Positions 8,095-44,502 of a stretch of DNA of 64,000 bases are shown piece after piece. Both the position numbers and the translations under genes were made by a program. This DNA comes from Euphorbia lathyris (lineage: Eukaryota; Streptophyta; Magnoliopsida; Malpighiales; Euphorbiaceae): NCBI RefSeq assembly GCF_963576675.1, contig NC_088919.1, forward strand, positions 43,484,501 to 43,548,500, given 5' to 3'. The notes under the pieces were generated by a model. The model had not been told where the DNA came from and ran no database searches. It saw nothing but the letters and a program-made list of their open reading frames with translations. Position 1 is the first letter of the stretch, and every line of letters starts with the position of its first letter.

Positions 8095-11000
8095 CTAGAG
8101 GCCTGCAGGATGTATATCAAATTCATGAAAACCTAAGTGGCAAGAACCTGCGAAGTTCGTCAACCAGTCAGCGGCACGGTTGCCCTCACGATAAGTGTGT
8201 TTGAACATGATTACCCAGCTTCTCTCACGTAACTCTTTACACCGAGTTACAATCCACGCATAAGGGTGGGAGGTTCCCATCTCTTTCGTTAACAGGTTCA
8301 TAATAACACACGAATCAACTTCCACAATCACTTTCCGGAATCCCTTGTCCCACGTGTGATTCATTCCGTGGAACAGGCCCCAAAGTTCTGCTAGTGTCAC
8401 TGTGCACCAGCCAATATTAACTCCGAATCCCCCTAGCCATTCACAGGATCTTCCGCGAATCAAACCTCCAGCGGCGACGCTGCCCGGGTTCCCTTTACAG
8501 GAGCCGTTTGTATTCACTTTCACCCAATCCTCCTCGGGAGGCTCCCAACGAATCCGAACTGTTTGAAGGGTCGTCATTCCCGAATCCTTTAGCAGCGTCT
8601 GAGCTTGCTGAAATTCTGTGCACTGCTGCATAATGTGATCCGCTCCTCTGTACTGACTACTGCTGCCCCCAAAGATCAGTTTATTCCTGTCTTTATATAG
8701 TTCCCAAACCGTCTGCGCGAAGACACTCGGCCAAGGCACATTCTGGACTGAACGAGTGCAATAAATGTTCCGAGATATCCAATCCCTCACATTACCATAG
8801 AAAAAAGCCGTTCTCAGGTTCCAGGGAATAAGGCGGGCCCATACTCGGCGAGCAAGAAAACAATCCTGTAAAATGTGAAGTTCTGTTTCACGCTAGCTTT
8901 GGCAATCTTCAGAGCTAGCTATGCCTCTTCGAACTCTATTAGTATTACAGAGGATACTATTGTGCATAGCCGTCCATAAAAACATTTTGACCTTCTCTGG
9001 AACTGACAGTTTCCACATTTTGTCCTAAATCCGATCCCCGGTCTGCTGCATAGCATTTACTTGAATATCATACCCGGATCAGACTGAATAATTTCTGAAG
9101 GCACAGTGAGGCCAATACCAGACGTCCGGCTCGTGCCTATCCGGACTCAGCGCATACGCTGCGACTTTCAGCAGGTCCGTCGAAGATAACAACCTATCAA
9201 GTTGATCCCAATCCCAGCTGTTTCGCGAGGAGTCCCAGTAATCCCTCACTGTTTTATTTAACTCCTCCATCCCTATACCTGCTGTATTATGAGGCGTCAG
9301 TACCCCTAGTCCGCACCAAGCGTCTCTCCAAAACTTCGTTTCGCTTCCGCCATAGACTAGTTTAGCAGCTCCTTGCTTAATAATTGAACCTCCTGCAACG
9401 ACACTCTTCCATGTCGCTGAGCTTGAACTTTGGGCCTGTAGTAGATCATGACCGAGTCTGTTTCCACCATATTTAGCACGAATTACACGAACCCATAGTG
9501 GGTCAGTATCCGTGAGCGCAGTCCAGCTCAGTCTTGCAATCATTGCTAAATTGAATTCTCTCATTCTTGTAATCCCCAATCCACCTTCGCTTTTCTTCTT
9601 ACTAACCACATTCCAATTGATCAGATGCATCTTTCTCTCCTGCCCCACTGTACCCCAGATAAAGCCTCTATTAAACTTGTCAAGACGGTCACAAATGCTT
9701 TTAGGTAGGAGTGCAGTTTGCATTATGTAGCTCGGTACTGCTGTCATGACTGATTTGACAAGCGTCGATCGGCCAGCCAGGTTCAGAGCTTTTGATTTCC
9801 ATCCTGCCAACTTGGTTTGAACACGCTCTACCACTGAACCATATGTTCCCTTGCTTATTCGTTGGTGAATAATTGGCATTCCCAGGTACTTCCCCAAATT
9901 TGTAGTTTTTGCAATTCCCAACGCTCTCCCAATTTCTAGGCTAGTTGGATCTGAAACATTGCTTGAATAGAAGACTCGAGACTTTATAAGACTGACTTTC
10001 TGTCTGGAGCAGGCAGAGAACTTACTCAAGATATCCCGAATAACCATAGCTTGCTGTACTGACGCCTCCGCCATTAACACAATATCGTCTGTGAAGAAAA
10101 TATAAGACAAGACAGGTCCTCCCCTTGACAGCTTAACTGGCTTCTAAGCTCCCTCGCTGACTGCATCCGAGATCAAGTGATTAAGCCGTTCTAAACATAG
10201 CACAAAAAGATACGGCGACAGGGGATCTCCTTGTCTAAGACCTCTGGTTGGATGAAAAGCCGGTAGCGGTTCGCCATTCCATAAGACACTCATGCTGGGC
10301 CCTGACACACAGGCCATTATTAGATTAATTAGATTGATGTCCAAGCCAACCTCCATAAGAGTATGTCGCAAGAAATCCCAAGAAATTCTATCGTAGGCTT
10401 TCTCCAAGTCTAATTTCAGGACCATGAGCCCCTTGCGGCCCCTCTTCTTCTTGAGAGAGTGAATAGTTTCCTGCAGTAAGATAATATTATCAGATATTTG
10501 ACGTCTAGGAACAAAGCTACTTTGAGTGGGGCCAATAATAGTACGAAGCGAGGTCTTCAACCGATTAACGATACATTTCATCACAATTTTGTACAAAACT
10601 GAGCACAAACTGATAGGCCGGAACTGAGTGATCCTGTCCGGGTTTGCATTTTTAGGAATCACCGTAATATGAGTGTCGTTCCAGCTCGGGGGCAGCACAC
10701 CTGTGTTTAATACATCCAGGACCGCATTAGTAACTTGTGCACCGAGGATAGGCCAGAGTCGCTGATACACCCCAGCTTGAAACCCATCGGGACCAGGAGC
10801 TTTAAACGGACTCATAGCAAACAGAGCCGCACGAACTTCAGCAGCGTTGAACCTATCATGACTCTGAAGAGAGGCAGGTAGCGGTAGAAAAGTACAATTG
10901 GTAGTTAGAAGCGGCCGATCTCTCATTTCCTCAGTAAAGAGTGTAGTAAAATGAGTTGTGACATGCTCCTGAAGCATACCACTCTCCCATATCCATCTCC

Positions 11001-12147
11001 CCGCTTCATCCATGAGCCATTCGATCTTATTTCTCCGCCGTCTGATAATGGTTGATGTATGGAAGAACGTTGAATTTTTATCCCCAAACTGCAGCCATTT
11101 AATCCGCGATTTCTGATACCAAAGAGTTTCCTCCTGCAGAAGAGTCGAATTCAGTTCCGATAAAAGTTTACTTTCTAGCCTAGCAAGGCCCTGAGTGAAC
11201 CGATTGGCCATGAGCTTTTGAACTCCTGTGAGGCGGCGGTAAAGCCGCTGCTTTCTGTGGAAAATATTACCAAAAATATTGCGGTTCCAGTTTCTTAGCT
11301 CCGGAATAATAGCAGCCGTCCCTTCCGTGATCTGAACATTTCTCTGCCAAGTTTGTCGGAAGAAGTTCAAGAAATCAACATGCTGGAGCCATGCAGCTTC
11401 AAACCGGAATGGCTTATTAGCGGGAGTGGTGCTGTCGAGGTTCAGGCTCATCAGGATGGGGGCGTGATCAGATTTTGTGCGGGGCAGATGACGGAGACTA
11501 GCATCGGGGAACCAACTGCGGAAAGTGGTGTTGCACAGAGCCCTGTCTAACCGACATACCACTCTAGTTCGCACTGTTGAGCCTCTGTACCAAGTGAAGA
11601 TCGGGCCTTGGAACCCCATATCGATTAATTGCATATTATTAATCCATTGAATGAAGAAGGAGCATCGATCAAGGACCCCTGGGGCACCTCCTTGCTTCTC
11701 CTCTCTGCTCTTGATACAATTGAAATCACCTAACACGACCCAGGGACCCTGAACCTCACTGTAGATTGAAAGCATGTCTTCCATAAATTCCCCCTTGAAG
11801 CTCATTTGGGGTCGGACGTAAATAAAGGTAGCAAAAAAAGATCTATTCTGAAGAGCTCCTCCGGAAAAGGTAATCTCAGTGTGTAAGAACTGTCTGTTTC
11901 GGGCAACAATTTGGATGCTAAGTCTGTCATGATTCCAGAATAACCAAATACCTCCACTGAAACCTTCCGTGTCAACTGTAGTTACATCGGGGAAGTTTAG
12001 TTTGCGACGAAGGTCCTCAGCTCGAGTCGAAGGAAGCCTTGGTTCCAGCAAAACTAAAATCTCAGGCTTATGAATCGAAAGCATGTGACGGAGAGCCCGG
12101 TGTAGCTCATTACCACCGGCTCCAAAGCAATTCCATGACAAAATCAT
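8095..12147 (-). pseudogene. LINE ORF2: endonuclease / reverse transcriptase / RNase H, with stops
   Basis: The ATG at 12147-12145 opens an APE-type endonuclease with SWNCFGAG, LLEPR, GDFN and KSDH, the expected metal and catalytic motifs. Reverse transcriptase follows (FRPISLC, LDLEKAYDR, RQGDPLSPYLF). The YXDD-type box reads FTDD (10085-10096), with Thr where Ala is usual. One continuous reading frame is broken by stops at 10144, 9079 and two more around 9000-8890, in the zinc-binding part. The RNase H domain (about 8640-8100) reads NTNGS at 8506-8508 where the first catalytic Asp (NTDG) is expected, so RNase H is also damaged. In related copies the protein continues past the stop at 8095, so this C-terminus is also shortened. 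Function in life: nicks target DNA and copies its own RNA there. Clearly inactive now. Confidence 0.88.
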
Positions 12148-12182
12148 AACTAAAAGGAAAAGTAAAGCGAAGGAACCTCTAC

Positions 12183-13250
12183 TTACTGAGGCGGGATGAC
12201 AAAGCCAGAACCCTGGCCCATTTCTTCATTTATCACATAGCTGTCAATAGTGGATAGAGGAGACCGATTAGCTGAGCTTGGTCTGCTTCGCTTGTTCCTC
12301 CCCGGGGGCTCCGTAGCCCTTAAGCAATTCTCCTTTCCCAGTAGGGCTGTAGCTAGATCCATCGCACCATCACTGACATTATCCATTAGAGTCCCAAAGG
12401 CATTGGAATTTACATGTGTTTTTCCTCCATTCAGGCGTGCCTTAGGAGCCTTTCCCCGGGTGCCTGAAGAGTTGAACGCAAAGCTAGGTTCCATATTACT
12501 TCTGCTGGGTTCGGCTGCTGCTTCCTGCAACTTAGTAATCTTTTCTGGTTGTAGAGGTTGAGCATTTGTTGGGAATTTGGATTGAAGAGAGCTCGCAACT
12601 TGCTTCAGGCGAGGTGTGTACTTTCGTTTGGGAACACATAGCCACTCCCCATAGTTTGCTGGGCTGTCATCACTGTTTGTAGCTAGGCTCGAGTCATTCA
12701 CTGGTTCCGAGTTACCTCTACTTTGTTGCTGTTCCCCCTTATCTTGCATTACCTCATCTATCCCCTTATCAGTAGATTCCAGCTCATGCGTTTTCGACAC
12801 CACTGAGCGACCGATCCCTGGGTTCCTGCAGCCTTCTTTTTCATGCCCATACAATCCGCACTTGTGACACGCTGTGTATAACCCTTCATATTCAATATGA
12901 TAGGTATTTCCATTGAGGCGGAATTGTGCAATTAAAGGCTTGCTAAGGTCAATCTCAACACAGACACGTGCGAACTTTCCTCTTGCCTTTCCTGTGGTGT
13001 TCTTATCAGCCCGAATGGCCTTACCAAAAGAATTTCCGATTAATAGTAGAGCATCCTCTTGATAAAACTGAATTGGTAGTTCAGGGAAACGAGCTCATAC
13101 CAGCGTTTTGTCAACCGAAGCCGCTGAAGGCACAAACGTAGGTGACCACTCCCTAACTGTCAGATAGTGTCCTTGCACCAGCCAAGGTCCATCTTGAATA
13201 ACACGATCCCTGTCAGTGCTCTTATCAAAATTTACTAGGTGAAATCCGTG
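12183..13250 (-). pseudogene. LINE ORF1 fragment: DUF4283 and CCHC zinc knuckle
   Basis: The minus strand reads a DUF4283-type region (GFHLVNF, DRVIQDGPW, then IQFYQEDALL) followed by ARVCVEIDLSKPL and a CX2CX4HX4C knuckle, CHKCGLYGHEKEGC (about 12820-12865). A long Ser/Pro/Gln-rich tail follows to the stop at 12183. One stop interrupts the DUF4283 part near 13096. The N-terminus is absent because the whole LINE is 5'-truncated at 13252. ORF1 proteins of plant LINEs bind the element RNA to form the retrotransposition particle. ORF2 begins 36 bases downstream. Confidence 0.82.
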
Positions 13251-17930: not shown

Positions 17931-18859
17931 TATACTTTTTTACTTTTCTTTTCTTTTCTTCGGTTTTTAGCATATTGTTTAATGAGTTAAACAAGAAAAT
18001 TTAATTAACCAACTATCCAACCTTTTTATTATACCGTTAAATTGGATTAGGAAAAGAGTATGAAGATTGAAAAATGTTAAAAAAATTGTCTTATCTCTTT
18101 GAACACGTTTTCCTTTTTCTTTTCTCTTGTTGATAGACATAAATATATTCATTTAACAAAATTTTCTTACCAAACAAATATTTGCAACATGTATTTAGAA
18201 AAAAGAAATGAAATGGGGAATGTATGTATGGTTGGGTTGGAAGGTTGCAAAGGCAGTTTTTGTCTACAAAATGGATTTTGTTGAGAATATCAAAAATTGA
18301 ATGCTATGTTATAGCTGTCTTGTGCTGTCTTTTCCCTTTCTTTGACTTGCCTAACCTTCCCTTTTTTTAATTTATATAAAAATTAAAATTAATGTATCAG
18401 TTTATTTCAGATTCTGTGTTACGTGTCAAGCAACTGGGGGGTAACCAGATCTTACATCTTCTAATTCTTAATCTTACCCTTTTGCGTCTGATTCCCTCTT
18501 TCCATTCTGCACCCTTCTTTCGGTTTTCCTGTTAACTACTACCATAATCATAAAAACATTTTCAAACATTTTATCAGGATAGTTATAAAAAATAGGATAT
18601 AATTTAGGTGGTTTAAAAGTTTCTGGGGTAATTATACTTTCATAAATTGTGAAGATTTTGCTCTTTTAAGTTTCTATTAAATATTAGAGGTTTGATAAAC
18701 ATTAATCACAAGACCTCCAAATGTTTAAAACGGGTCTAGGTGTATGAACACGATATTTGATAAAAAAAATATATATATTTTAGAGGATTTAATTCATAAA
18801 CCATTTTAGATCAATTGACTTCAATAGTTTTGTTGAATTATGTATGATATGAATGTATA
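17931..18859. other. AT-rich intergenic DNA
   Basis: No recognisable gene. A 61-codon open frame at 18099-18284 has no visible domain and ordinary AT-rich composition. Confidence 0.5.
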
Positions 18860-19635
18860 CTGGTCATTATTAAAAAACGAGTAAGGACGTGTGGAGTAAG
18901 GTGAATCACGTTAAATGAGTAACCACCAAAATACTTGGGCCAATGAAAGACATTCTAAACCCACTCAAGAAAAGAACCTCCAATTCACGCCAGAAATCCA
19001 GGAAATACAAGGTAGACACATTACAAACTATGTAAATTACAACAGACGTTCGCCATTGGGGACTTGACATTTGTCCTCAAGAGAAGCTAGGACGTGACAT
19101 CACGCAATCAAGGTACATACACAAACTCATTGCAATCCTTACTTGATTGCTTGTTGCTTACATTCCTAAACTCTGCTAACTTAAGCATTAGAGTGGGTTA
19201 CCGGTCATCAGTCTTTCCTTGATCATTTTTCTGTCTTACCTCATGCATAAAAGGAAACTAAGTTGTCATCAGAGCATTGCCTATAGGTTCACCATATCAA
19301 ATTGGCTCTACGAGCGTGGACCGAACAACATGCATCTATGGCACATCTTGAAAACTCAATGGATCCATCGTTCTTACGGCAAATCCAGGAGCCCAAAACC
19401 CCCACAGATGCTAGTGGAAATCCGTTAGGGCTCTTTCAAATCACCACTAATCTCAACATCTTATCGAGGAATGTTTAAGGTCATTAGATTTTGCAAATAG
19501 AGAGTTTATGGATATAATAATCAATTTCAACGTCAGAACTGTCCATATAGCTACAAACATGAACAAAATTACAATGGCTCACTTGTAGGAAACTCTAGAC
19601 ATTGTGGAACATGCCATCAAGCTTTGGGGTAGGAA
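18860..19635 (+). pseudogene. LTR-retroelement 5' relic (LTR end, primer-like site)
   Basis: The stretch acttaagcattagagtggg (about 19180) resembles the conserved leader motif of plant Gypsy-type LTRs, also seen in the solo LTR at 6.7 kb. At about 19261-19279 ttgtcatcagagcattgcc resembles a degraded tRNA-Met primer site. The following sequence would be a leader or gag, but no gag fold is recognisable. The captured-gene array is inserted immediately downstream. Confidence 0.35.
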
Positions 19636-19923
19636 TGTTGGAGAGAAAAGAAGAATATAAGAAGTGAAAGAAATATAGGAGGAAACTTTTCTTAAATTTT
19701 ATTTCTCTTTAACTTGTGCTTCTTCACTTTTAACCTATACAAGATAACTATTTATAGTACATGAAAATGTAACTATTACAAACCTAATAAATAACATTTA
19801 ATAACTCTTCATGATTAATTAAGATTCTAACTTAACATCACATAACTTCTTATAAGTTATTCTAAAGTAACTTAATAACAATCGACTTAAAGACTATTAA
19901 TTATAAATTTATTATTTCTAACA
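19636..19923 (-). repeat. Array LTR 1 (outermost 3' LTR)
   Basis: 288 bp; on the minus strand TGTTAGAAAT to CTCTCCAACA. It has at least four private differences from the other four LTRs, making it the most diverged. A TATA-like box lies at 19748-19757, and an AATAAA-type signal lies further along in the minus direction. Confidence 0.9.
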
Positions 19924-19937
19924 CACCCCTTAAATTT
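19924..19937 (-). other. Polypurine tract of array unit 1
   Basis: The minus strand reads aaatttaaggggtg directly against the LTR start. Equivalent tracts lie next to LTRs 2-4 at about 21527, 23131 and 24735; units 3 and 4 have one more G. It would prime plus-strand DNA synthesis. Confidence 0.75.
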
Positions 19938-20040
19938 ATAATTTTTTTTTATCTTTTACCAACAACATCTCTTAATCTGCTGAAATCTTCTAACTTCAAC
20001 GTTGTTGACCTCTTCACTCTAGCCGCAATCATCCTCATTA

Positions 20041-21192
20041 TTATCTCCATCTTTTTCTTCGAACTTCATTGTAATTGACGTTTTCACTCTGGCTTCTATC
20101 ATCTCCCTTATTATTTCCATCGTTTTCTTCTTCATTGTCTTCATCGTCATTTTCCTCATCATCATCGTCGTCTTCCTCATTATCATCATTGTCATATTCC
20201 TCAACATCTTGGTCAGTACCATCAGCATCACTATTATCAATGTCAACTGGTATTTTGGGTTTTGTCGCAGTGCACCTTCTACGTGAAGTTGACACAATAT
20301 TACTCATGTTAATGCCATCTGCTTCTTTCACTCTTTCCTTTATCTCTTTAACTTCCATAGTCATCCCACGTGATTTGATTACCGTTTTTAGATGCTCAAT
20401 GCCTTTACTATATGGTGGTGTTGAAATTTCCTTTTCCTTGTCATGTTGTTCAACCGATGATTGAGACTGACTATCATCAAAGGCATTCTCGGTGCCTTCT
20501 GCAATGATGTTCTCCTTGGCTTCTTCTTCCATAAGCTTGCTTTGCTTCTTGCCTGATGCTTTGCTTTCTTTTTCAAGCCTCGGTTTTACTTCACCATCTT
20601 CATCTTGGTCGTCCTCATCAATCTCTCTTTCTAAAGACTCCGAATTCTCATCAGCACATAGATATACCTCAATTAACAGATTGCCTATATATTTCTTATA
20701 TGGATCAAGTGCAAATTTATCAAGTCCAAAATCTTCGTCTAAAATTCGACAAAGACTGTTCGTCGTAACTTCCTCATAATTGGCTTTAATATAAGAATCT
20801 TTCTTCAATGTGGCTGTGGTAATGCTGCTCTTACTTGGAACTTCTTTCTTCTTACTGATTGGATCAGTTTCTGGCAAAAGACCCATCACAGGAGAATCTT
20901 CAATTTTCTCCTTATCATCAGATACATGTCCTTGTACCTTAATTTCTCCTAAATCCTCAGAATTCTCATCATCATCATTTTCTAAGGATTCCACCAGACA
21001 TTGCATGAAAAATTTCTTTTGTCCATCCAAAGCATATTTCTCCAATCCCAAATCATTTTCCAACACCCTCCTGATCTCCTCGAAGGTCAAAGAATCAACT
21101 TGTTCTTTGATGTCATCTATGCATAAGCGCATAGCTTTCCAAATCTGGGACTTGGTCTCCCATGAATCAATGACGATTTCTCTTTTCACCAT
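20041..21192 (-). CDS. Captured DEK_C/CHZ-type chromatin protein, array unit 1 (open)
   Basis: The ATG at 21192 (MVKREIVID) opens 383 codons without an intron. Residues ~15-70 (IWKAMRLCIDDIKEQ, RRVLENDLGLEKY, KKFFMQCLVESL) and ~130-185 (CRILDEDFGLDKFALD, KKYIGNLLIEVYL) resemble two DEK_C-type helical domains. Near residue 295, DGINMSNIVSTSRRR followed by KPKIPVDIDNSD resembles the CHZ motif of H2A.Z histone chaperones. The tail is almost all Asp/Glu/Asn. This domain order recalls, from memory, a plant nuclear acidic protein family with CHZ domains. The start lies 46 bases inside the 5' LTR edge, so the LTR promoter would drive it. Inferred: a transduced, spliced cDNA with part of the parental middle lost. 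Open, but expression is unknown. Confidence 0.78.
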   Translation of the reverse strand: MVKREIVIDSWETKSQIWKAMRLCIDDIKEQVDSLTFEEIRRVLENDLGLEKYALDGQKKFFMQCLVESLENDDDENSEDLGEIKVQGHVSDDKEKIEDSPVMGLLPETDPISKKKEVPSKSSITTATLKKDSYIKANYEEVTTNSLCRILDEDFGLDKFALDPYKKYIGNLLIEVYLCADENSESLEREIDEDDQDEDGEVKPRLEKESKASGKKQSKLMEEEAKENIIAEGTENAFDDSQSQSSVEQHDKEKEISTPPYSKGIEHLKTVIKSRGMTMEVKEIKERVKEADGINMSNIVSTSRRRCTATKPKIPVDIDNSDADGTDQDVEEYDNDDNEEDDDDDEENDDEDNEEENDGNNKGDDRSQSENVNYNEVRRKRWR

Positions 21193-21222
21193 TATTCTCA
21201 ATTTTCAGGAGAATTTTTGTCT

Positions 21223-21235
21223 GGCTCTGATACCA
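21223..21235 (-). other. Primer binding site (initiator tRNA-Met), array unit 1
   Basis: The minus strand reads TGGTATCAGAGCC, three bases inside LTR 2. The same site is present in the other units at 22827-22839, 24431-24443 and 26035-26047, so every unit keeps the start signal for minus-strand DNA synthesis. Confidence 0.88.
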
Positions 21236-21238
21236 CTT

Positions 21239-21526
21239 TGTTGGAGAGAAAAGAAGAATATAAGAAGTGAAAGAAATATAGGAGGAAGCTTTTCTTAAAT
21301 TTTATTTCTCTTTAACTTGTGCTTCTTCACTTTTAGCCTATACAAGATAACTATTTATAGTACATGAAAATGTAACTATTACAAACCTAATAAATAACAT
21401 TTAATAACTCTTCATGACTAATTAAGATTCTAACTTAACATCACATAACTTCTTATAAGTTATTCTAAAGTAACTTAATAACAATCAACTTAAAGACTAT
21501 TAATTATAAATTTATTATTTCTAACA
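21239..21526 (-). repeat. Array LTR 2
   Basis: 288 bp, same ends as LTR 1, TATA-like box at 21351-21360. It acts as the 3' LTR of unit 2 and the 5' LTR of unit 1. Confidence 0.9.
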
Positions 21527-21644
21527 CAACCCCTTAAATTTATAATTTTTTTTTATCCTTTACCAACAACATCTCTTAATCTGCTGAAATCTTCTAACTT
21601 CAACGTTGTTGACCTCTTCACTCTAGCCGCAATCATCCTCATTA

Positions 21645-22796
21645 TTATCTCCATCTTTTTCTTCGAACTTCATTGTAATTGACGTCTTCACTCTGGCTTC
21701 TATCATCTCCGTTATTATTTCCATCGTTTTCTTCTTCATTGTCTTCATCGTCATTTTTCTCATCATCATCGTCGTCTTCCTCATTATCATCATTGTCATA
21801 TTCCTCAGCATCTTGGTCAGTACCATCAGCATCACTATTATCAATGTCAACTGGTATTTTGGGTTTTGTCGCAGTGCACCTTCTACGTGAAGTTGACACA
21901 ATATTACTCATGTTAATGCCCTCTGCTTATTTCACTCTTTCCTTTCTCTCTTTAACTTCCATAGTCATCCCACGTGATTTGATTACCGTTTTTAGATGCT
22001 CAATGCCTTTACTATATGGTGGTGTTGAAATTTCCTTTTCCTTGTCATGTTGTTCAACCGATGATTTAGACTGACTATCATCAAAGGCATTCTCGGTGCC
22101 TTCTGCAATGATGTTCTCCTTGGCTTCTTCTTCCATAAGCTTGCTTTGCTTCTTGCCTGATGCTTTGCTTTCTTTTTCAAGCCTCAGTTTTACTTCACCA
22201 TCTTCATCTTGGTCGTCCTCATCAATCTCTCTTTCTAAAGACTCCGAATTCTCATCAGCACATAGATATACCTCAATTAACAGATTGCCTATATATTTCT
22301 TATATGGATCAAGTGCAAATTTATCAAGTCCAAAATCTTCGTCTAAAATTCGACAAAGACTGTTCGTCGTAACTTCCTCACAATTGGCTTTAATATAAGA
22401 ATCTTTCTTCAATGTGGCTGTGGTAATGCTGCTCTTAGTTGGAACTTCTTTCTTCTTACTGATTGGATCAATTTCTGGCAAAAGACCCATCACAGGAGAA
22501 TCTTCAATTTTCTCCTTATCATCAGATACATGTCCTTGTACCTTAATTTCTCCTAAATCCTCAGAATTCTCATCATCATCATTTTCTAAGGATTCCACCA
22601 GACATTGCATGAAAAATTTCTTTTGTCCATCCAAAGCATATTTCTCCAATCCCAAATCATTTTCCAACACCCTCCTGATCTCTTCGAAGGTCAAAGAATC
22701 AACTTGTTCTTTGATGTCATCTATGCATAAGCGCATAGCTTTCCAAATCTGGGACTTGGTCTCCCATGAATCAATGACGATTTCTCTTTTCACCAT
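21645..22796 (-). pseudogene. Captured DEK_C/CHZ-type protein, array unit 2 (one stop)
   Basis: Same length and domain order as unit 1. An in-frame TAA at 21927-21929 falls just before the CHZ-like motif, after KERKERVK. A truncated product would keep both DEK_C-like domains but lose the CHZ-like motif and the acidic tail. It shares the stop, the Lys in QSKSS and the Lys in DDEKNDDE with unit 4, but shares FFMQCLVES with unit 1. Confidence 0.8.
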
Positions 22797-22842
22797 TATT
22801 CTCAATTTTCAGGAGAATTTTTGTCTGGCTCTGATACCACTT

Positions 22843-23130
22843 TGTTGGAGAGAAAAGAAGAATATAAGAAGTGAAAGAAATATAGGAGGAAGCTTTTCTT
22901 AAATTTTATTTCTCTTTAACTTGTGCTTCTTCACTTTTAGCCTATACAAGATAACTATTTATAGTACATGAAAATGTAACTATTACAAACCTAATAAATA
23001 ACATTTAATAACTCTTCATGACTAATTAAGATTCTAACTTAACATCACATAACTTCTTATAAGTTATTCTAAAGTAACTTAATAACAATCAACTTAAAGA
23101 CTATTAATTATAAATTTATTATTTCTAACA
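22843..23130 (-). repeat. Array LTR 3
   Basis: 288 bp, almost identical to LTR 2. TATA-like box at 22955-22964. Confidence 0.9.
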
Positions 23131-23248
23131 CACCCCCTTAAATTTATAATTTTTTTTTATCCTTTACCAACAACATCTCTTAATCTGCTGAAATCTTCTA
23201 ACTTCAACGTTGTTGACCTCTTCACTCTAGCCGCAATCATCCTCATTA

Positions 23249-24400
23249 TTATCTCCATCTTTTTCTTCGAACTTCATTGTAATTGACGTCTTCACTCTGG
23301 CTTCTATCATCTCCGTTATTATTTCCATCGTTTTCTTCTTCATTGTCTTCATCGTCATTTTCCTCATCATCATCGTCGTCTTCCTCATTATCATCATTGT
23401 CATATTCCTCAGCATCTTGGTCAGTACCATCAGCATCACTATTATCAATGTCAACTGGTATTTTGGGTTTTGTCGCAGTGCACCTTCTACGTGAAGTTGA
23501 CACAATATTACTCATGTTAATGCCCTCTGCTTCTTTCACTCTTTCCTTTATCTCTTTAACTTCCATAGTCATCCCACGTGATTTGATTACCGTTTTTAGA
23601 TGCTCAATGCCTTTACTATATGGTGGTGTTGAAATTTCCTTTTCCTTGTCATGTTGTTCAACCGATGATTGAGACTGACTATCATCAAAGGCATTCTCGG
23701 TGCCTTCTGCAATGATGTTCTCCTTGGCTTCTTCTTCCATAAGCTTGCTTTGCTTCTTGCCTGATGCTTTGCTTTCTTTTTCAAGCCTCAGTTTTACTTC
23801 ACCATCTTCATCTTGGTCGTCCTCATCAATCTCTCTTTCTAAAGACTCCGAATTCTCATCAGCACATAGATATACCTCAATTAACAGATTGCCTATATAT
23901 TTCTTATATGGATCAAGTGCAAATTTATCAAGTCCAAAATCTTCGTCTAAAATTCGACAAAGACTGTTCGTCGTAACTTCCTCACAATTGGCTTTAATAT
24001 AAGAATCTTTCTTCAATGTGGCTGTGGTAATGCTGCTCTTAGTTGGAACTTCTTTCTTCTTACTGATTGGATCAGTTTCTGGCAAAAGACCCATCACAGG
24101 AGAATCTTCAATTTTCTCCTTATCATCAGATACATGTCCTTGTACCTTAATTTCTCCTAAATCCTCAGAATTCTCATCATCATCATTTTCTAAGGATTCC
24201 AGCAGACATTGCATGACAAATTTCTTTTGTCCATCCAAAGCATATTTCTCCAATCCCAAATCATTTTTCAACACCCTCCTGATCTCCTCGAAGGTCAAAG
24301 AATCAACTTGTTCTTTGATGTCATCTATGCATAAGCGCATAGCTTTCCAAATCTGGGACTTGGTCTCCCATGAATCAATGACGATTTCTCTTTTCACCAT
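23249..24400 (-). CDS. Captured DEK_C/CHZ-type chromatin protein, array unit 3 (open)
   Basis: 383 codons, fully open. It differs from unit 1 by a handful of residues (KNDLG, FVMQCLLES, ANCEE, KLRLEKE, EAEGINMSN). Its 3' half agrees with unit 1 (QSQSS, KEIKERVK, DDEENDDE), while FVMQ is shared with unit 4. Promoter: LTR 4; polyadenylation: LTR 3. Two open copies of equal length could reflect recent origin or selection; sequence alone does not decide. Confidence 0.78.
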   Translation of the reverse strand: MVKREIVIDSWETKSQIWKAMRLCIDDIKEQVDSLTFEEIRRVLKNDLGLEKYALDGQKKFVMQCLLESLENDDDENSEDLGEIKVQGHVSDDKEKIEDSPVMGLLPETDPISKKKEVPTKSSITTATLKKDSYIKANCEEVTTNSLCRILDEDFGLDKFALDPYKKYIGNLLIEVYLCADENSESLEREIDEDDQDEDGEVKLRLEKESKASGKKQSKLMEEEAKENIIAEGTENAFDDSQSQSSVEQHDKEKEISTPPYSKGIEHLKTVIKSRGMTMEVKEIKERVKEAEGINMSNIVSTSRRRCTATKPKIPVDIDNSDADGTDQDAEEYDNDDNEEDDDDDEENDDEDNEEENDGNNNGDDRSQSEDVNYNEVRRKRWR

Positions 24401-24446
24401 TATTCTCAATTTTCAGGAGAATTTTTGTCTGGCTCTGATACCACTT

Positions 24447-24734
24447 TGTTGGAGAGAAAAGAAGAATATAAGAAGTGAAAGAAATATAGGAGGAAGCTTT
24501 TCTTAAATTTTATTTCTCTTTAGCTTGTGCTTCTTCACTTTTAGCCTATACAAGATAACTATTTATAGTACATGAAAATGTAACTATTACAAACCTAATA
24601 AATAACATTTAATAACTCTTCATGACTAATTAAGATTCTAACTTAACATCACATAACTTCTTATAAGTTATTCTAAAGTAACTTAATAACAATCAACTTA
24701 AAGACTATTAATTATAAATTTATTATTTCTAACA
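24447..24734 (-). repeat. Array LTR 4
   Basis: 288 bp, with a private change (tttagcttg where the others have tttaacttg). TATA-like box at 24559-24568. Confidence 0.9.
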
Positions 24735-24852
24735 CACCCCCTTAAATTTATAATTTTTTTTTATCCTTTACCAACAACATCTCTTAATCTGCTGAAATCT
24801 TCTAACTTCAACGTTGTTGACCTCTTCACTCTAGCCGCAATCATCCTCATTA

Positions 24853-26004
24853 TTATCTCCATCTTTTTCTTCGAACTTCATTGTAATTGACGTCTTCACT
24901 CTGGCTTCTATCATCTCCGTTATTATTTCCATCGTTTTCTTCTTCATTGTCTTCATCGTCATTTTTCTCATCATCATCGTCGTCTTCCTCATTATCATCA
25001 TTGTCATATTCCTCAGCATCTTGGTCAGTACCATCAGCATCACTATTATCAATGTCAACTGGTATTTTGGGTTTTGTCGCAGTGCACCTTCTACGTGAAG
25101 TTGACACAATATTACTCATGTTAATGCCCTCTGCTTATTTCACTCTTTCCTTTCTCTCTTTAACTTCCATAGTCATCCCACGTGATTTGATTACCGTTTT
25201 TAGATGCTCAATGCCTTTACTATATGGTGGTGTTGAAATTTCCTTTTCCTTGTCATGTTGTTCAACCGATGATTTAGACTGACTATCATCAAAGGCATTC
25301 TCGGTGCCTTCTGCAATGATGTTCTCCTTGGCTTCTTCTTCCATAAGCTTGCTTTGCTTCTTGCCTGATGCTTTGCTTTCTTTTTCAAGCCTCAGTTTTA
25401 CTTCACCATCTTCATCTTGGTCGTCCTCATCAATCTCTCTTTCTAAAGACTCCGAATTCTCATCAGCACATAGATATACCTCAATTAACAGATTGCCTAT
25501 ATATTTCTTATATGGATCAAGTGCAAATTTATCAAGTCCAAAATCTTCCTCTAAAATTCGACAAAGACGGTTCGTCGTAACTTCCTCACAATTGGCTTTA
25601 ATATAAGAATCTTTCTTCAATATGGCTGTGGTAATGCTGCTCTTACTTGGAACTTCTTTCTTCTTACTGATTGGATCAGTTTCTGGCAAAAGACTCATCA
25701 CAGGAGAATCTTCAATTTTCTCCTTATCATCAGATACATGTCCTTGTACCTTAATTTCTCCTAAATCCTCAGAATTCTCATCATCATCATTTTCTAAGGA
25801 TTCCACCAGACATTGCATGACAAATTTCTTTTGTCCATCCAAAACATATTTCTCCAATCCCAAATCATTTTCCAACACCCTCCTGATCTCCTCGAAGGTC
25901 AAAGAATCAACTTGTTCTTTGATGTCATCTATGCATAAGCGCATAGCTTTCCAAATCTGGGACTTGGTCTCCCATGAATCAATGACGATTTCTCTTTTCA
26001 CCAT
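24853..26004 (-). pseudogene. Captured DEK_C/CHZ-type protein, array unit 4 (same stop as unit 2)
   Basis: Same layout as unit 2, with the identical in-frame TAA at 25135-25137. Private changes include KYVLDGQKKF, TTAILKK, NRLCRILEEDF and VMSLLPE. It is next to the outermost 5' LTR (LTR 5). Confidence 0.8.
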
Positions 26005-26050
26005 TATTTTCAATTTTCAGGAGAATTTTTGTCTGGCTCTGATACCACTT

Positions 26051-26338
26051 TGTTGGAGAGAAAAAAAGAATATAAGAAGTGAAAGAAATATAGGAGGAAG
26101 CTTTTCTTAAATTTTATTTCTCTTTAACTTGTGCTTCTTCACTTTTAGCCTATACAAGATAACTATTTATAGTACATGAAAATGTAACTATTACAAACCT
26201 AATAAATAACATTTAATAACTCTTCATGACTAATTAAGATTCTAACTTAACATCACATAACTTCTTATAAGTTATTCTAAAGTAACTTAATAACAATCAA
26301 CTTAAAGACTATTAATTATAAATTTATTATTTCTAACA
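26051..26338 (-). repeat. Array LTR 5 (outermost 5' LTR)
   Basis: 288 bp, with a private change (gagaaaaaaagaat where the others have gagaaaagaagaat). It is the outermost promoter for minus-strand transcription of the whole array. Confidence 0.9.
26163..26172 (-). promoter_or_regulatory. TATA box in array LTR 5
   Basis: The minus strand reads CTATAAATAG, about 175 bases upstream (in transcript sense) of the captured reading frame of unit 4. The same box occurs in all five LTRs at the same offset. Confidence 0.65.
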
Positions 26339-26679
26339 AGAAATAGGGAGAAATTAGGGTTTCATTAAAAAACAGTGAAAAAGGGGATGTTGGGGCGTAG
26401 GGCCGCGCACAAGGGCTCAGTAGTAAACTAACCAGGGACGATATTATCTTTAAATTTCTATCAGTAATTCCAGCAACGTTGTTTTTCTTTTGAAGAGGCC
26501 CTTCCAAACCTCTGATTTTGATGTGATCAGCCTTGTTGGTCTCACTTCGACAAACCCAATAATTTTTTTCACAAATATTTTGCTAAAAAATCAGTATATC
26601 TAATGTGTTAAGTGCCTTTTGAGTTATCTTTAGCAAACACGAGAATATGTTATTTTCTTTCATTATGACCCCTCCTTAT
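26339..26679. other. Flank of the array, no gene seen
   Basis: Begins with agaaa, the right copy of the array target duplication. The rest has no recognisable coding or repeat content. Confidence 0.45.
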
Positions 26680-27075
26680 ACTTACATGGCTACATGGATG
26701 CTGAATGAGGTGGTAATCTTGATGAAAAAAGTCCCACCACTAGATATTCCATCTATCTCGGGTGGAATTTGATTTCTTGTAATTCCAGGAAACAACGATA
26801 TGTTGCTTGGTCATCCATAGAGGCAAAGTACAACGTCCTTGCAAATGGAGCATCTGAAATTGATTGGTTGTAAATCATTTTTTTTTCTGTATCTCATGTC
26901 TTAAGCTACCACGACTATATTTTGTGATAATTTATCTACTACCAATGTCTCAAAGCGTCCCTTACATGTTCACCATATACCAACTATTGATAAAGTTGCG
27001 AATGTTCTCAAATAATCTCCATCAAAGGATCAATTTCAAACTCTACCTGGCAAGTTGAGTATTTGTGTCAAACCG
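26680..27075 (+). pseudogene. Ty1/copia RNase H and pol-end relic
   Basis: The plus strand gives degraded copia RNase H in shifting frames: SIYLGWNLIS, SRKQRYVAWSSIEAKYNVLANGASEIDWL (about 26745-26870), then a pol-end pattern VANVL...FQTLPGKLSICVKP (about 26995-27075). Frameshifts and stops are present. No LTR could be delimited. Confidence 0.65.
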
Positions 27076-28468
27076 GTGAGCGATGATGATTTTCGTATTA
27101 ACCCTAACATGTTGTATATGTATTTATATGTTTATGAATAGGTTTATCACATTATTTACATCCCACTCCAAATTCCATATTTACAATGATATAAGAGAGT
27201 CCAAATTCCAGAAAGGCAATTCCAAGGTTATTAAAGTATATGCAGTTGATATTTAATAGTCTTTGGCACAATCATTCTATCAATGTGGATTTTAAATTGC
27301 TTAGATGTCATAGAGTTGGGCTAATGCATTTAAAGAAGTAGAGGTTATTAAAAATTGGCCTAATTGAATTGTAAGAGAGAGAGAGAGTAGTCCCTCCTCC
27401 ATCCTCCCTGATGCATGGTTCTGACAATAAAAGAGTAGTTTGGTGGTCTAGACTAGAGGAAGGAAGTAAAGAAAAGACAAGAAAGCAAAGCAAAGCAGCA
27501 TAATGCATAATGTAGAGTAGAGACAGAAGAGAAATAAATAAAAAGAAAGAAAGAAAGACAGATAGCTAGGGTGTGGGAGTGGGGGAATTATGACTATGAT
27601 AGGAATTTGCAGGATGGAATGATGGAAATTCCTGCACTGCACAAAGAAGAGAATAGAATAGAATGATTCAATGGATAAAAGTCCAACGCAAAAGGTTTCC
27701 CTTATTTATTACTCATTTTCAATTTGGCAGCTGAAATATCGTTTCACCTTTTGTTCTTTTCTTATTCTTTCAATATATGGATGGATGCCTTCGAGGACGC
27801 CGCCTGCCCCTGCCTACATTTTTAACTTACTGTTTGCCTGGATATTTGTGATATTTGGATTTTGCAATATCTGCTTTGATCCCAATGCATCCCCCCCATT
27901 TTTATTTTCTTTTTTTTTTTTTAATTCAAAAAACTATAATTAAACCCTCCACCTTTTACGGTTTTACAAAATAAGTCTCTAACACTTTATTTTGCTATAT
28001 TAAACTTTTAAACTTGAATTTTCATCACAATTGGGAGAAATTCTATTATGTTACTTGGATATTGCTAATAATTATGCACTTTTTTTTACACCAATCATTT
28101 TCTAATAAAGTAGTATATTTCTTTTTTTTCATTAGGTGGGTATATTACTTCCGATCCATTGTAGAAGTTCTCTATATTTAGAGTGTTTTTGTTTCATATT
28201 TTCAAAATAACTTTTAGCGTTTCAGTTCAAACCTCAAGAAATATAATAGTATTTGGTTAAATTCATAAAACAACATCTTTTAGTTATGAAAAATTGGTTG
28301 TAATTATATAGATAAAATTATCATTCTTATTTCTTTAAACATATTTCATTTTTCACGTCATTCCTATTAATATAATATTATTTTCGAAATAACAAAATTT
28401 TACTTTGTTTAGTAAATTATTATTTAGTTGTTCAAGTTATTTTTATTAATTTGTGTATTATATTTTAG
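27076..28468. other. AT-rich intergenic DNA
   Basis: A short GA run (about 27371-27388), GA-rich sequence to 27670, and otherwise AT-rich DNA. Open frames here are low-complexity. No gene supported. Confidence 0.5.
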
Positions 28469-31303: not shown

Positions 31304-31733
31304 GTCCTGTTTCGCCGGTCTCTCCCCGTTCTTGCTCTGTTTTTTGTTGTTCGACACCCTTACCAGTTGCTGCTCGCGTTTCCGTCTCTGTTTTTATTTT
31401 TCCGGTTTGGATCCGCCGTCGCGGACTTGCTCTGGTCGTCGGCCTTTGTTCCCTTCATTGCTGTGGTTGTTCGCCGCCATTTTTGTCCGATTGCTTGGCC
31501 TTGTTTCATTCATTGTTGCGATTCCACCATCGGCGGCTGGGTTGTGATCTAAAAAAGTATTGATTGTCTTTCACGGTGGTTGTCCTTCCCTGCCTTATTC
31601 CACTTCCGTCTCCGGCTGCCCTATAACGTTACACCTATTTGTGACCTAATTTTTTTTAATAAAAGTTAATTAAATTTAATAATTAATTTTAGTAAAAGTT
31701 AATTAAATTTAATAATTAACTTAATTGTTGTTG

Positions 31734-32870
31734 ATGGAAGAAATCATTGATAGGAGTGCTCTAATCACCCTAGAGGAGGAAGTTCAGTCGGGATTAGTGA
31801 TTCAACTGGATGCCACTGAAGTTCAATCCCGCCCTCAAACTTGGTGTTTGATAGGGTCGTTTCTAACAAACAGGCCAATCAAAACATCTTTTATGAAATC
31901 CACATTAGCTGATGTTTGGAGTCCCTCAAAAGAGATTTTCATTGAAGATATAGGCCCTAATTTATTCCGTTTTGAATTCTACCATCCATGGGAGCGGGAT
32001 AGGGTAATTCAGGGTGGGCCATGGGCTTTTGAACAACAATTACTGATGCTAAAGAAGCTTGAGGATGATCAAAATCCTATGGATATTCACTTGTCTCACA
32101 TTGATTTTTGGCTGCAGGTTTATGATCTTCCAGTTGGGTTTATGTCTGAAAAGGTTGCTGTCAGTATAGGTAACTTTGTGGGTACTTTTGTGGAAGCTGA
32201 CCCGAATAACTTCACAGGGGTCTCTCGTACCTATCTACGAATTCGTGTTTCGATTAATGTCCTCGCTCCGCTTAAGAGGAAAATGCAGATAAGTGTTCAG
32301 GGAGGTACTGTTTTTTGGGTAAACTTTAAATATGAACGGCTCCCAACCTTTTGCTTTGTATGTGGACATATAGGGCACGCAGATAAATTCTGTCACGCTC
32401 TATTACAAGTAGCTGATCCAATGAAAGTAGAGAGAGCATATGGGGCCTGGCTTAGAGCCCCTACTTGCCGTTCCCAAGTTCCTAAGCAATCAAGATTTTT
32501 GTTTAGCCGACCTCCTCAGAACCTTACTCAGACAAACAACGTAGTCATTTCAGGTTTTGTCTCAGGGGCTGGTTCAGGGGAAAGGGAGGTTATTATTCCG
32601 AAAATTGCTACAGTTGTTCCCCCGGGTTTTAAGGCACTACAGAGTAAGACAACTTTTCAACACAAGGAGTATACCCATCAGACTCCAGAAGATATTGGTG
32701 TTGTAATTTCTGACCCGAAACGCAAGCGCTCAGGATCATTGGTCGAAGATACACAGGGAAGTTCAGAAAATCTTATGGATTGTGAGGAAAACAATACAGT
32801 GAGGTTGGGGGCAGTTATTGAAAATATCCAAGAAGCGAGTCGTGGTAGCCCGACTCGCAAGATATCATGA
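31734..32870 (+). CDS. LINE ORF1: DUF4283 and CCHC zinc-knuckle RNA-binding protein
   Basis: 378 codons from the first ATG (MEEIIDRSAL). Residues ~35-190 have the DUF4283 pattern (IGSFLTNRPI, DRVIQGGPWAFEQQLLMLKK, FWLQVYDLPVGF, RTYLRIRVSINV). A CX2CX4HX4C knuckle (CFVCGHIGHADKFC) lies near residue 205. The C-terminal third is Ser/Pro/Thr-rich with a basic patch, PKRKRS. It probably binds element RNA for retrotransposition. It is intact. The stop TGA (32868-32870) overlaps the ORF2 ATG in ATGA, suggesting that ORF2 is translated by termination and reinitiation. Confidence 0.88.
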   Translation: MEEIIDRSALITLEEEVQSGLVIQLDATEVQSRPQTWCLIGSFLTNRPIKTSFMKSTLADVWSPSKEIFIEDIGPNLFRFEFYHPWERDRVIQGGPWAFEQQLLMLKKLEDDQNPMDIHLSHIDFWLQVYDLPVGFMSEKVAVSIGNFVGTFVEADPNNFTGVSRTYLRIRVSINVLAPLKRKMQISVQGGTVFWVNFKYERLPTFCFVCGHIGHADKFCHALLQVADPMKVERAYGAWLRAPTCRSQVPKQSRFLFSRPPQNLTQTNNVVISGFVSGAGSGEREVIIPKIATVVPPGFKALQSKTTFQHKEYTHQTPEDIGVVISDPKRKRSGSLVEDTQGSSENLMDCEENNTVRLGAVIENIQEASRGSPTRKIS

Positions 32871-35800
32871 GTATACTGTCCTGGAACTGCCGGGGGATAG
32901 GGAACGCCCGAACAGTTCGTCAGCTAGTGGATTTCTCTACCAATTTACATCCCGAGTTCATCTTTCTAATGGAGGTTAAATGCAGTCGACTCAAGGTGGA
33001 AGCATTGAAACGAAAGCTTTCCTTTGAGGGCCTGTTTTTTGTTGATCCAATAAACAATGGAGGGGGCTTAGCGCTCTTATGGAGAACTGTTAATTCAGTT
33101 CAGTTGCTTGGTTATTCTTCTAATTTCATTGACTTCAGGGTCACTTTGTTAGGTTTGTCGGAGTATCGATTAACCGGTTTTTATGGCTTTCCCGAGAGAT
33201 CGCGTCGGGTAGATTCTTGGCAGTTACTAAGGAGTCTTAGCTTGATTAATTCTGATCCCTGGGTTATCATTGGGGATTTTAATGACATGCTCTCTCATTC
33301 TGAGAAGAGAGGGGGTAACAGACACCCACCTACCTTGATAAGGGGTTTCAGTGATGCTATTATAGATTGTGGGTTGTCAGAAGTCAGTATGAAGGGTTAT
33401 CCGTTCACGTGGGAAAGAGGTCGTGGTTCAAAAAATGCTATAGAAGAGAAACTCGATCGGGCCCTTGCTAATAACAGTTGGTTTATGCAGTTCAGTTTGG
33501 CTTCTGTCTTGAATGAGGATGCTCAATGTAGTGATCATACGATACTCTTCTTGTCTCTAATTAACACTATGGGTTCTATGTCTCGCCGTTTTCGGTTTGA
33601 AAATGCTTGGATCAAAGAAGCTGATTGCAGAGATCAGATAATTTTGGCCTGGCAACATTCAAATGCCAGAGGAATTTTGGTTAAACAGGAAAAATGTGGC
33701 GAAATGCTTGTAGCTTGGGGAAACAACATTCGTAACCGATTTAAGAAAGAAATTCATTGCTGCAGATCAGAAGTTAGAAGACTAAAATCTTGTACTGATA
33801 GGCTGGCAATCGAAGCAATATTGGCTGCTAGGAATCGCTTTGATGAGCTTCTCCTCCAACAAGAAGCCTATTGGAAGCAGAGAAGCAAGACACTTTGGCT
33901 CAAAGCTGGGGACCAGAACTCAAAATTTTTTCACTCGGCTGCTAACAGTAGACGCAAAAGGAATGAAATTCGACGACTGAAAGATGAGGAAGGAAACTGG
34001 ATCGATTGGGAGACAGGGTTACCTTCTCTAATTTCAGACTATTTTATAGAAATCTTCACATCTTCAGGGAGTCACTCTGAACCTATTTTGAATAATATTC
34101 AGCCAAAAATCTCGACGGAACTAAATGCTGATCTTCTTCAACCATATACTGCAGACGAGATAAAGAGGGCGGTTTTCTCAATGCATCCTGATAAAAGTCC
34201 CGGTCCTGATGGTTTTAATCCATGTTTCTACCAACAATATTGGGACTTGGTAGGCCCTGATGTGATTCAATCATGCATTCAATGGCTGAATGAAGGACTG
34301 TTTTTGGAGAGCATCCATGACACAAATATTGTTCTAATCCCTAAGAAATCTTCTCTAGAAAAAGTTTCAGATCTCAGGCCCATAGCATTATGCAATGTTA
34401 TTTACAAGATTCTGGTGAAAACAGTTGCTAACAGGCTAAAAAAGGTTCTAGATATTATTATCTCGCCCACACAGAGCGCTTTCATCTCGGGACGACTGAT
34501 CACGGACAATATTATGCTTGCGTTTGAAGTAAACCATTTCCTGGAACATAGAACTCGAGGTAAACAAGGATATGTTTCTCTTAAGCTTGATATGGCCAAG
34601 GCTTATGATCGGGTTGAGTGGGCGTTTTTGGAACAAATGATGCAGACGTTAGGCTTTGATGACCGGTGGATATCTCTGGTTATGCAGTGTGTTACAAAGG
34701 TCAGATATAATATTACCCATAATAATCATGTGATTGGGCCAATTCTGCCACAGCGTGGCCTGCGTCAAGGTGACCCTATCTCTCCCTACCTTTTTTTGAT
34801 TTGTGCAGAAGGTTTATCAGCATCGTTGCAAAGTTTAAAAGCTCAGGGTCAGATCCATGGCTGTCGGATAGTTCAATCAGCCCCGTCAATCTCTCATCTC
34901 TTCTTTGCAGATAACAGCTACTTGTTCTTCAAAGCGTCAAAGGAAGAGTGCTTAGTGGTTCAACAGTGTTTGCAAGAATATGAAGCAGCTTCTGGACAGA
35001 AGGTAAACTTCTCCAAATCCTCAATCTCATTCAGCAAAAATTGTAGTGCGGGTCTTCGATCGATCTTAAGTTCAATTTTTAGAGTACCATTGGGGTTGGG
35101 CACTGCAACATACCTTGGTCTCCCGGCTTTAGTTGGGAGAAGTAAAACACAAGTGTTCCAATACATTGCTGACAGAGTCAGATCTAGGGTCACAGCATGG
35201 AAGGCAAAAATGTTATCTCAAGCTGGTAAGGAGATTCTGTTGAAATCTATTATACAAGCCCTCCCCTCCTATGCTATGAGTCTATTCCTCTTACCTCAAC
35301 TTCTGTGTGATGATCTGGAAAGAATGATGAATTCTTTTTGGTGGGGATCTGGGTTTGAGGAGAGAGGCATGCGTTGGAAGTCATGGGGGAAACTATGTGT
35401 CCCGAAGAGCTTAAGTGGATTGGGTTTTCGAAAGTTACATTTATTTAAACTTGCTCTTCTGGCTAAACAAGGGTGGAGGCTACTAACCAATCCAGATTCA
35501 TTACTTGCACGGGTATATAAGGCTAAGTATTTTCCCTCTTCTTCCTTTCTAGAGGCGGATCTTGGTAATCAGCCCAGCTTTATATGGAGAAGCATAGATG
35601 CTGCACAGTCACTTGTTATTTCTGGAGCTAGATGCATTGTTGGGATAGGGGAGTCTATTAACATCTGGGAAGACCCTTGGCTGCCTGACCCTGACCACCC
35701 TTTTGTAGAAAGTGCGCGACTCCTGGGCTTTGAGGTGGATACTGTGAATAACATCCAACAGCCTTCAGGGGAGTGGAACTTGGAATTAATTAATGGGATC

Positions 35801-36130
35801 TTTGTAGATCGGGATACAGAACTTATTCGGAGGATTCCTCTAAGTCACCGTTTGGTGTCTGATGCGTGGGGATGGTACTGGAGAAAGAGAGGCAAGTTTT
35901 GTGTGAAAAGTGCATATAAACACTTGTGGTCTGAAAAATATGGCAATAATCCATCATTGACAGTTGATGGAGTTAATTGGGGTTCAGTATGGGCACTTCA
36001 GGTTCCGCCCAAGGTAAAAAATCTAATTTGGAGAACCTTGGCTGGTTGTTTACCGTCGCTGAGCGCTTTATCTGCTAGAAGGGTTCCGATCAATAACTTG
36101 TGTCCTTCATGCCTACAATCTGAGGAGGAT
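32867..36130 (+). pseudogene. LINE ORF2, first 1,088 codons: endonuclease and reverse transcriptase
   Basis: The open frame runs without stops to the copia insertion at 36131, which adds a few LTR-encoded residues before a stop. The endonuclease keeps SWNCRG, FLMEVK, GDFND and SDH. Reverse transcriptase keeps LRPIALCNVIYKI, LDMAKAYDRVEW and RQGDPISPYLF. The catalytic box, normally FADD, reads FADN at residues 680-683 (34904-34915): the second Asp is Asn, a change expected to abolish polymerase activity. The zinc-binding region starts CPSC just before the break. The frame continues at 47657. Total original length is about 1,352 residues, normal for plant L1-type ORF2. Confidence 0.9.
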
Positions 36131-40891: not shown

Positions 40892-40997
40892 TGTTTCCGA
40901 AAAAGGTTGGGAAGCTTTTAGAGTCTTAGAGAGAGAGAGAATGCTTTGCCAGAGATTTCGTTAAGTGTAAAGAAAATAAAAATGGGGATTTACCCAT

Positions 40998-41006
40998 TAT
41001 TTATAG
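40998..41006 (-). promoter_or_regulatory. TATA-like box upstream of the extra ORF
   Basis: The minus strand reads CTATAAATA, 107 bases before the extra ORF's ATG, with a CT-rich leader between (ctctctctctaag near 40930). This could be an internal promoter separate from the LTR. Confidence 0.45.
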
Positions 41007-41373
41007 CGGTGAGGAGTGGATCTTATCGAATCCATGTGTCTGTTTTGCCTTGGGATTGTCAACCGATAAAGATCCTGGCTTTTATAACACATTCGGTGCA
41101 TACATCATCCTAGGTGGCTATTCGCTTGCTTTTGCATTAATTACAACGGATCTTATACTCAGCGTTTAGAATACTAAGCGTTTTAAATTCTGAGTGGTCA
41201 GTTTATACATACGGATGATTTCTCAGTTTGAGATTACTACTCGGTGTGCACATTTACTCAGTATTGATATATATTGCGTTAAGTACTCAGCATAACAATC
41301 ACTCAGCATGCATTTGCATAAATCATTCAGCGTAGTAATTCACTCAGCATAAGTTTAGATTTAGAATAGGAAT

Positions 41374-44300: not shown

Positions 44301-44502
44301 AGACTGACTCAATAGTAGGATTACCTCCGATGGTTCCTGACCCTACTATCTTACCCTTTTTGTTGTCTCCAAAACTTACGCTTCCTCCTCGTTTACGCTC
44401 AAACGTGATGAACTGAGTTTCATCACCAGTCATGTGCCTCGAGCATGCGCTGTCAATATACCACATCTTTGACTTCTCAGCACACCTCAGGCTTACCTGC
44501 AT
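41374..44502 (-). pseudogene. Copia pol: protease, integrase, reverse transcriptase, RNase H (three stops)
   Basis: One reading frame from the ATG at 44502. Protease: WYIDSACSRHMTGD, with Ala at the position usually Gly in the DSG triad. A pre-integrase motif, LWHRRLGHVS, follows the first stop. Integrase: HLDLFGPV, SDNGGEF and VVERKNRTL supply the D, D and E. Reverse transcriptase: [30 protein letters not shown] and YVDD (about 42315). RNase H: SKKQASVALSTTEAEY. The protein ends LADIFTKPLAREQF...NPLQ. In-frame stops at 44083-44085, 42862-42864 and 42445-42447 separate the segments. Pol begins six bases after the gag stop, in another frame, so a restart or frameshift was needed even in the intact element. 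Confidence 0.9.

Follow-up and report, generated by a model that had tools for sequence, protein, structure and literature searches.

A tandem array of a probable copia-derived retrotransposon carrying a Chz1/HIRIP3-like gene copy in Euphorbia lathyris

What keeps a captured gene open in a mobile element that ought to manage reverse transcription without it, and does a mobile copy of a histone chaperone gene affect chromatin? Both questions are raised by a locus in the 1.02-Gb genome of Euphorbia lathyris, within a 64-kb stretch (C10:43484501-43548500; hereafter the window, in whose coordinates positions are given), where long terminal repeats (LTRs) alternate with copies of a single open reading frame (ORF) resembling the plant Chz1/HIRIP3 gene. 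Judged by its sequence, the locus is very probably a tandem array of a non-autonomous copia-derived element in which gag-pol has been replaced by a spliced host Chz1/HIRIP3 cDNA. It also seems somewhat probable that the element gains some benefit, of whichever kind, from translation of the captured ORF. The observations of an earlier note on this DNA were confirmed in part, and its interpretation is partly supported.

The array lies on the minus strand (26338-19636), as do all features listed for it here, and consists of five 288-bp LTRs alternating with four internal regions of 1315-1316 bp, giving a repeat period of 1603-1604 bp. Each unit has a primer site 3' of its LTR, one intronless ORF whose ATG lies 46 bases from the start of the internal region, and a polypurine tract (PPT) 5' of the next LTR, as the earlier note had described. 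LTR 1 (26051-26338; TG...CA) forms the 5' end of the array; LTR 2 (24447-24734) is common to units 1 and 2, LTR 3 (22843-23130) to units 2 and 3, and LTR 4 (21239-21526), identical to LTR 3, to units 3 and 4. LTR 5 (19636-19923), at the 3' end, shows 4-5 differences from the other LTRs and contains TATAAATA. The primer binding site TGGTATCAGAGCC, which we take to be of the initiator methionine (iMet) tRNA type, is found at 26035-26047 in unit 1 and at 24431-24443, 22827-22839 and 21223-21235 in the other units. A 383-codon ORF had been reported for all four units; it is open, with 383 codons and a stop, in unit 2 (23249-24400) and in unit 4 (20041-21192), where its Chz1/HIRIP3 likeness was noted, and is cut short by a stop at codon 290 in units 1 (25135-26004) and 3 (21927-22796). 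The reported lack of gag and pol holds in general for the four units, except that about 17 terminal codons of a copia pol remain.

The array is enclosed by a target site duplication (TSD), TTTCT on the 5' side (26339-26343, minus strand) and TTCCT, with one mismatch, on the 3' side (19631-19635), and therefore behaves as one insertion. Its units differ at 10-18 internal positions, each with a distinct pattern. This variation is mosaic, as unequal recombination or conversion would give: four sites at internal positions 776-1085 pair units 1 and 3 against units 2 and 4, and other sites group otherwise. A retrozyme, i.e. an LTR element with a hammerhead ribozyme, was considered as a separate candidate and rejected, since an Rfam scan of positions 18000-28000 gave no hammerhead match up to E=1.

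The only copia sequence left in the internal region is the last 17 or so pol codons, ending in TLKLEDFSRLRDVVGKR-stop (19949-20002 in unit 4, the donor sequence on the 3' side), together with the PPT region (19924-19948 in front of LTR 5, with counterparts 5' of LTRs 2-4). We take the TLKLEDFSRLRDVVGKR stretch to be a copia pol end from its likeness to a degenerate copia element outside the array (17811-16533, minus strand), which has reverse transcriptase (RT), RNaseH, PPT and 3' LTR sequences and matches the RVT_2 profile. This remnant appears to be a relative of the donor; it has the pol end/PPT stretch and the LTR start in common with the array, with 82% agreement over 123 columns. From these sequence features the family is classified as a non-autonomous Ty1/copia-derived LTR retrotransposon. 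In another copy of the element (L029:2538-4061), an open frame of 507 aa seemingly fuses the captured ORF to the copia pol end without a shift of frame and ends in LRNVFGKG.

A parent-like gene is located on contig C7 near 76.469 Mb, its exon matches being 96 and 98% identical to P0002. Of this gene 1021 bp were read, in which two introns are complete, with GT..AG ends, and one more is represented by its 3' end. In the element ORF the introns are absent and the three exon junctions are joined exactly, without a scar. On the 3' side, the captured tail passes through a 70-bp tandem duplication (19982-20121; two copies, 51/70 alike, spanning the tail of the captured gene and copia sequence), then TLKLEDFSRLRDVVGKR-stop, then the PPT. 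The combination of reading frame and duplication accounts for the ORF ending RRKRWR, which closes the longest frame at 20 of 41 loci, with one change at two more, and occurs in just three of 174 proteins from the homologue search, all from E. lathyris. This shared junction tail argues for one capture. The three annotated E. lathyris proteins that bear it (P0001, P0003 and P0038, all uncharacterized) would thus be transposon copies counted as host genes, P0001 being identical to the ORF of two element loci (L039 and L040).

By homology over most of its length, the array ORF is a shortened and diverged copy of a plant Chz1/HIRIP3 gene, with two helical DEK_C-like parts, a linker, a CHZ region and an acidic tail in this order, and a DEK-like fold is predicted for the captured protein. 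The window ORFs lack some stretches of the parent, for example of about 24 and about 43 residues, and their C-terminus is new. They did not reach the gathering score of the CHZ profile (PF09649), being absent from its matches at E<=1, and stayed below the DEK_C threshold. When ten ORFs were scanned (from nine of the 17 full-length loci described below, plus window unit 2), the CHZ threshold was passed by one (L017, 26.9 bits) and the DEK_C threshold by none. On this sequence basis the ORF is described here as a Chz1/HIRIP3 derivative and is not classed as a CHZ protein.

A 35-mer near the ORF start was matched to the genome, allowing <=3 mismatches. It gave 114 sites, of which 52 are forward and 62 reverse, and each of the ten large contigs (C1-C10) has some of them; the reversed 35-mer gave none. 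Besides the window, 42 loci were read, as compared with at least 114 sites in the genome: L009, L010, twenty picked by DNA similarity (L013-L032) and twenty taken in order of their match to P0002 (L033-L052). LTR pairs of at least 200 bp surround the ORF in 33 of the 42; 18 of these 33 pairs are at least 98% identical, and that of L020 is 100% identical. Among 35 LTR pairs of any length, TSDs could be checked at 32, of which 17 are exact, 7 have one mismatch and 8 are worse. Two of the latter eight (L013 and L018, i.e. 2/33 pairs) have a second primer site directly 3' of the 3' LTR and hence a further unit. The LTRs fall into two classes, class A in 13 loci and the window, and class B in 20 loci and the copia remnant. 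ORF segments do not always follow LTR class: class-B L010 is closest to class A in five of six ORF segments, class-B L048 is so in one, and the ORF end of class-A L052 is closest to class B, so the classes have recombined. Two further groupings were observed. L039-L041 (C3:14151992, 14187172 and 14237890) are three near-identical copies, spaced at 35-51 kb and flanked by identical 5-mers, which shows that a segment already containing the element was triplicated, and six same-strand ORF 5' ends within 11 kb (C1:14444266-14455115) form a second, irregular cluster of the element.

Taken with the junctions, these data bear out part of what the earlier note had proposed. It had attributed the ORF to a spliced host mRNA taken up by a copia-type element, and both the copia pol end with a PPT region matching the RT/RNaseH remnant and the three exact exon joins agree with this; the intron-bearing parent that it suggested looking for has a counterpart on C7, contrary to the intronless parent that the note named as a refutation, and spread by transposition is reflected in 114 sites and 17/32 exact TSDs. 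Its assignment to a chromatin gene stands as regards homology to Chz1/HIRIP3; in the CHZ and DEK_C profiles the window ORFs score below threshold. Expression from the LTR and competition with the parent protein, which the note also put forward, would be possible consequences.

Seventeen of the 42 loci (7 of the first twenty and 10 of the second twenty) keep the whole ORF, beginning at the usual start and reaching the tail, and L010 is open without the usual start. For the analysis of open copies we used 19 sequences: window units 2 and 4, L010 and the full-length loci except L040, which was dropped because its ORF is the same as that of L039. These are 0.086-0.165 substitutions per site away from their common ancestor. 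In a neutral simulation from existing ORFs (500 runs), which counts stops only and leaves frameshifts outside the model, copies acquired 5.8 stops on average (range 4.6-8.0); the number of copies left intact out of 19 averaged 0.046 and never exceeded 3. Omega for the whole ORF was 0.724 (kappa 2.0), with a log likelihood (lnL) of -6722.3 as against -6730.5 at omega 1, the latter taken at the best kappa of the grid, i.e. a cost of 8.2 log units. The lowest value was obtained for the first 80 alignment codons (0.578; lnL -836.0 vs. -838.6 at omega 1, a cost of about 2.7 log units with the best kappa tried lying at the grid edge), and the C-terminal part gave 0.665, where omega 1 costs 7.5 log units (kappa 2). 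Between the C7 parent and the elements, replacements are rarer at host-conserved than at variable columns (40/149 vs. 50/113, p=0.004). Judging by these sequences, the open frame has evidently been kept in spreading lineages, and we conclude that constraint at the protein level lies between weak and moderate and is not just the parent's constraint carried over.

Several points weigh against a copia-derived family that spread with a captured ORF of use to it. No LTR pair of at least 200 bp was found at nine of the 42 loci, some of which have partial LTRs. The locus lists favor long, similar copies, so intact copies are over-represented and the true open fraction is probably lower than 17/42; moreover, "full-length" means that a frame reaches the shared tail, which makes the tail count partly circular. 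Within the array, the ORF is roughly as variable as the LTR and all but one of its 21 differences alter the protein, so the units show no sign of constraint since insertion. Overall omega is high, even though below 1, and in the middle of the ORF it is 0.823, where omega 1 costs only 0.4 log units (kappa 2) and no difference from 1 is seen. The codon models assume a single tree, an assumption that exchange between copies violates. The pairwise ratio of nonsynonymous to synonymous divergence (dN/dS) between the parent fragment and the elements is 0.75-1.05 over 120-126 codons, and among the copies host-conserved columns vary about as much as the others (82/149 vs. 71/113, p=0.21).

One explanation that draws on these points is that the captured sequence is passive cargo filling the element RNA, the open copies being products of very recent bursts from few sources. 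Recent activity is indeed indicated by the many nearly identical LTR pairs, near-identical groups (L024, L027, L028 and L030; L039-L041) fit such bursts, and the neutral-looking change in the window array and the middle-region omega agree with it. The depth of the open copies makes this explanation rather unlikely, as neutral change would have left each of them with several stops; the open set also covers deep branches, and overall omega is below 1. It is a more serious possibility, if short of an even chance, that selection acts on an uninterrupted frame and not on amino acids, through escape from nonsense-mediated decay or translation-coupled packaging. High omega, the similar variability of host-conserved and other columns among copies and the scarcity of profile matches in the scanned ORFs would all be expected then; the overall omega below 1, its minimum in the first 80 codons and the predicted DEK-like fold would not. 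Since synonymous divergence is also low in those 80 codons, RNA-level constraint or homogenization could contribute to that minimum. In the opposite direction, the element may have taken over the chaperone as its own gene, with an LTR-driven protein that alters H2A/H2A.Z handling near the element's own chromatin and eases its expression or integration, acting via the conserved N-terminal DEK-like part and the CHZ-like part with the acidic tail. From the sequences at hand we regard this as improbable. If true, it would mean a host-derived counter-silencing factor on a non-autonomous retrotransposon, selected across two LTR classes. In the OsChz1 paper (PMC7658359), H2A.Z and DNA methylation are noted to be anticorrelated, which an anti-silencing role of this kind would fit.

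Two other explanations concern the nature of the locus itself. Long ORFs and three annotated proteins with the same tail, one of them identical to the ORF at two loci, are what an amplified host gene family merely lying among LTRs might show. LTR pairs flanking the ORF at most loci, exact TSDs at about half of the checkable pairs, the absence of introns and the presence of sites on all ten contigs make such a family very unlikely. An assembly artefact comes to mind because repeats this similar are easily collapsed or expanded. The distinct patterns of internal differences, the single near-perfect TSD pair around the array and the second primer sites at L013 and L018 leave this only a slight chance.

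For the preferred reading, a copia-derived element with a translated host cDNA, the following course may be envisaged. Capture would have occurred during reverse transcription, by template switching between the mRNA of the chaperone and a copia RNA that had been packaged. Transcription would be driven by the LTR, in which TATAAATA is at most suggestive, and a copia partner would supply gag-pol in trans for packaging and reverse transcription. The four-unit array could have grown through recombination between shared LTRs, or by concatenation before integration, at one insertion. That so many ORFs are intact and that omega is below 1 suggests selection for an open frame in spreading lineages, single copies presumably drifting after insertion. 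The most likely benefit would be that the translated product, above all its first 80 or so residues, or the act of translation aids the element.

Other elements in the window were recorded by eye. What we take to be a large SIRE-type element extends over 38018-46136 (minus strand), with copia-type pol frames (41374-42444 and 42862-44082), a zinc-knuckle gag-like ORF (44508-46136), further long ORFs downstream of the pol frames (38018-40960, minus strand) and a primer-site-like TGGTATCAGAG at 46301-46311. Three LINE-like elements (8095-13094, minus strand; 31725-36160 and 47609-51968, plus strand) carry ORFs of endonuclease/RT, RNase H-like and zinc-knuckle type; in one of these elements an open frame runs to 1103 aa.

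The family, recently active and with more than 100 sites, is of interest because its only ORF is a single captured gene that is nearly complete and has remained readable in many copies for longer than drift allows. It also shows that such copies enter the annotation as host proteins. With LTRs of 288 bp and about 1.9 kb in length, a two-LTR unit seems too large for a TRIM. In the literature consulted, plant LTR captures are described as fragments or as many separate captures, and our search found no family of this size in which a chaperone gene, nearly whole, is the sole ORF and is kept open. The TRIM captures reported in one study are gene fragments, exon-only and of host origin, in elements of 1,172-1,449 bp (PMC4717578), unlike the long ORF found here. 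The tandemly arrayed TRIMs (TA-TRIMs) of the same account resemble the present array in having several LTRs and internal regions in a row inside one TSD, a maize example having five LTRs with four internal regions (PMC4717578). Maize Bs1 is likewise an LTR element in which host gene pieces form an ORF; as a review describes it, it contains segments of three genes, none as a full-length ORF (PMC13317346), whereas here a single gene is present nearly from start to end and at high copy number. As to the protein, the captured ORF has the same order of parts by homology as OsChz1 (PMC7658359). It differs from plant Chz1/HIRIP3 in the missing parent stretches, the new C-terminus and the sub-threshold Pfam scores, and is known from sequence alone. 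A close parallel is LTR-mediated retroduplication in pepper, where NLR genes lie within non-autonomous LTR elements. These too are spliced host genes between LTRs, mostly without gag/pol and in many copies; purifying selection is reported for them, and the authors infer that functions are supplied in trans (PMC5664825). In pepper many NLR genes and several subgroups are involved; here one chaperone gene with one junction tail supplies the only ORF in a family that has two LTR classes, tandem arrays and more than 100 sites. Rice and sorghum genes captured by LTR elements have been reported as well (PMC3726574). Since gene-carrying non-autonomous LTR elements (PMC5664825, PMC3726574) and arrays of five LTRs with four internal regions (PMC4717578) are thus already described, the earlier note went too far in putting the locus first among its candidates for an undescribed system. 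Non-autonomous LTR elements that capture genes are known, as are LTR arrays in tandem, and the present family is a striking new variation on both.

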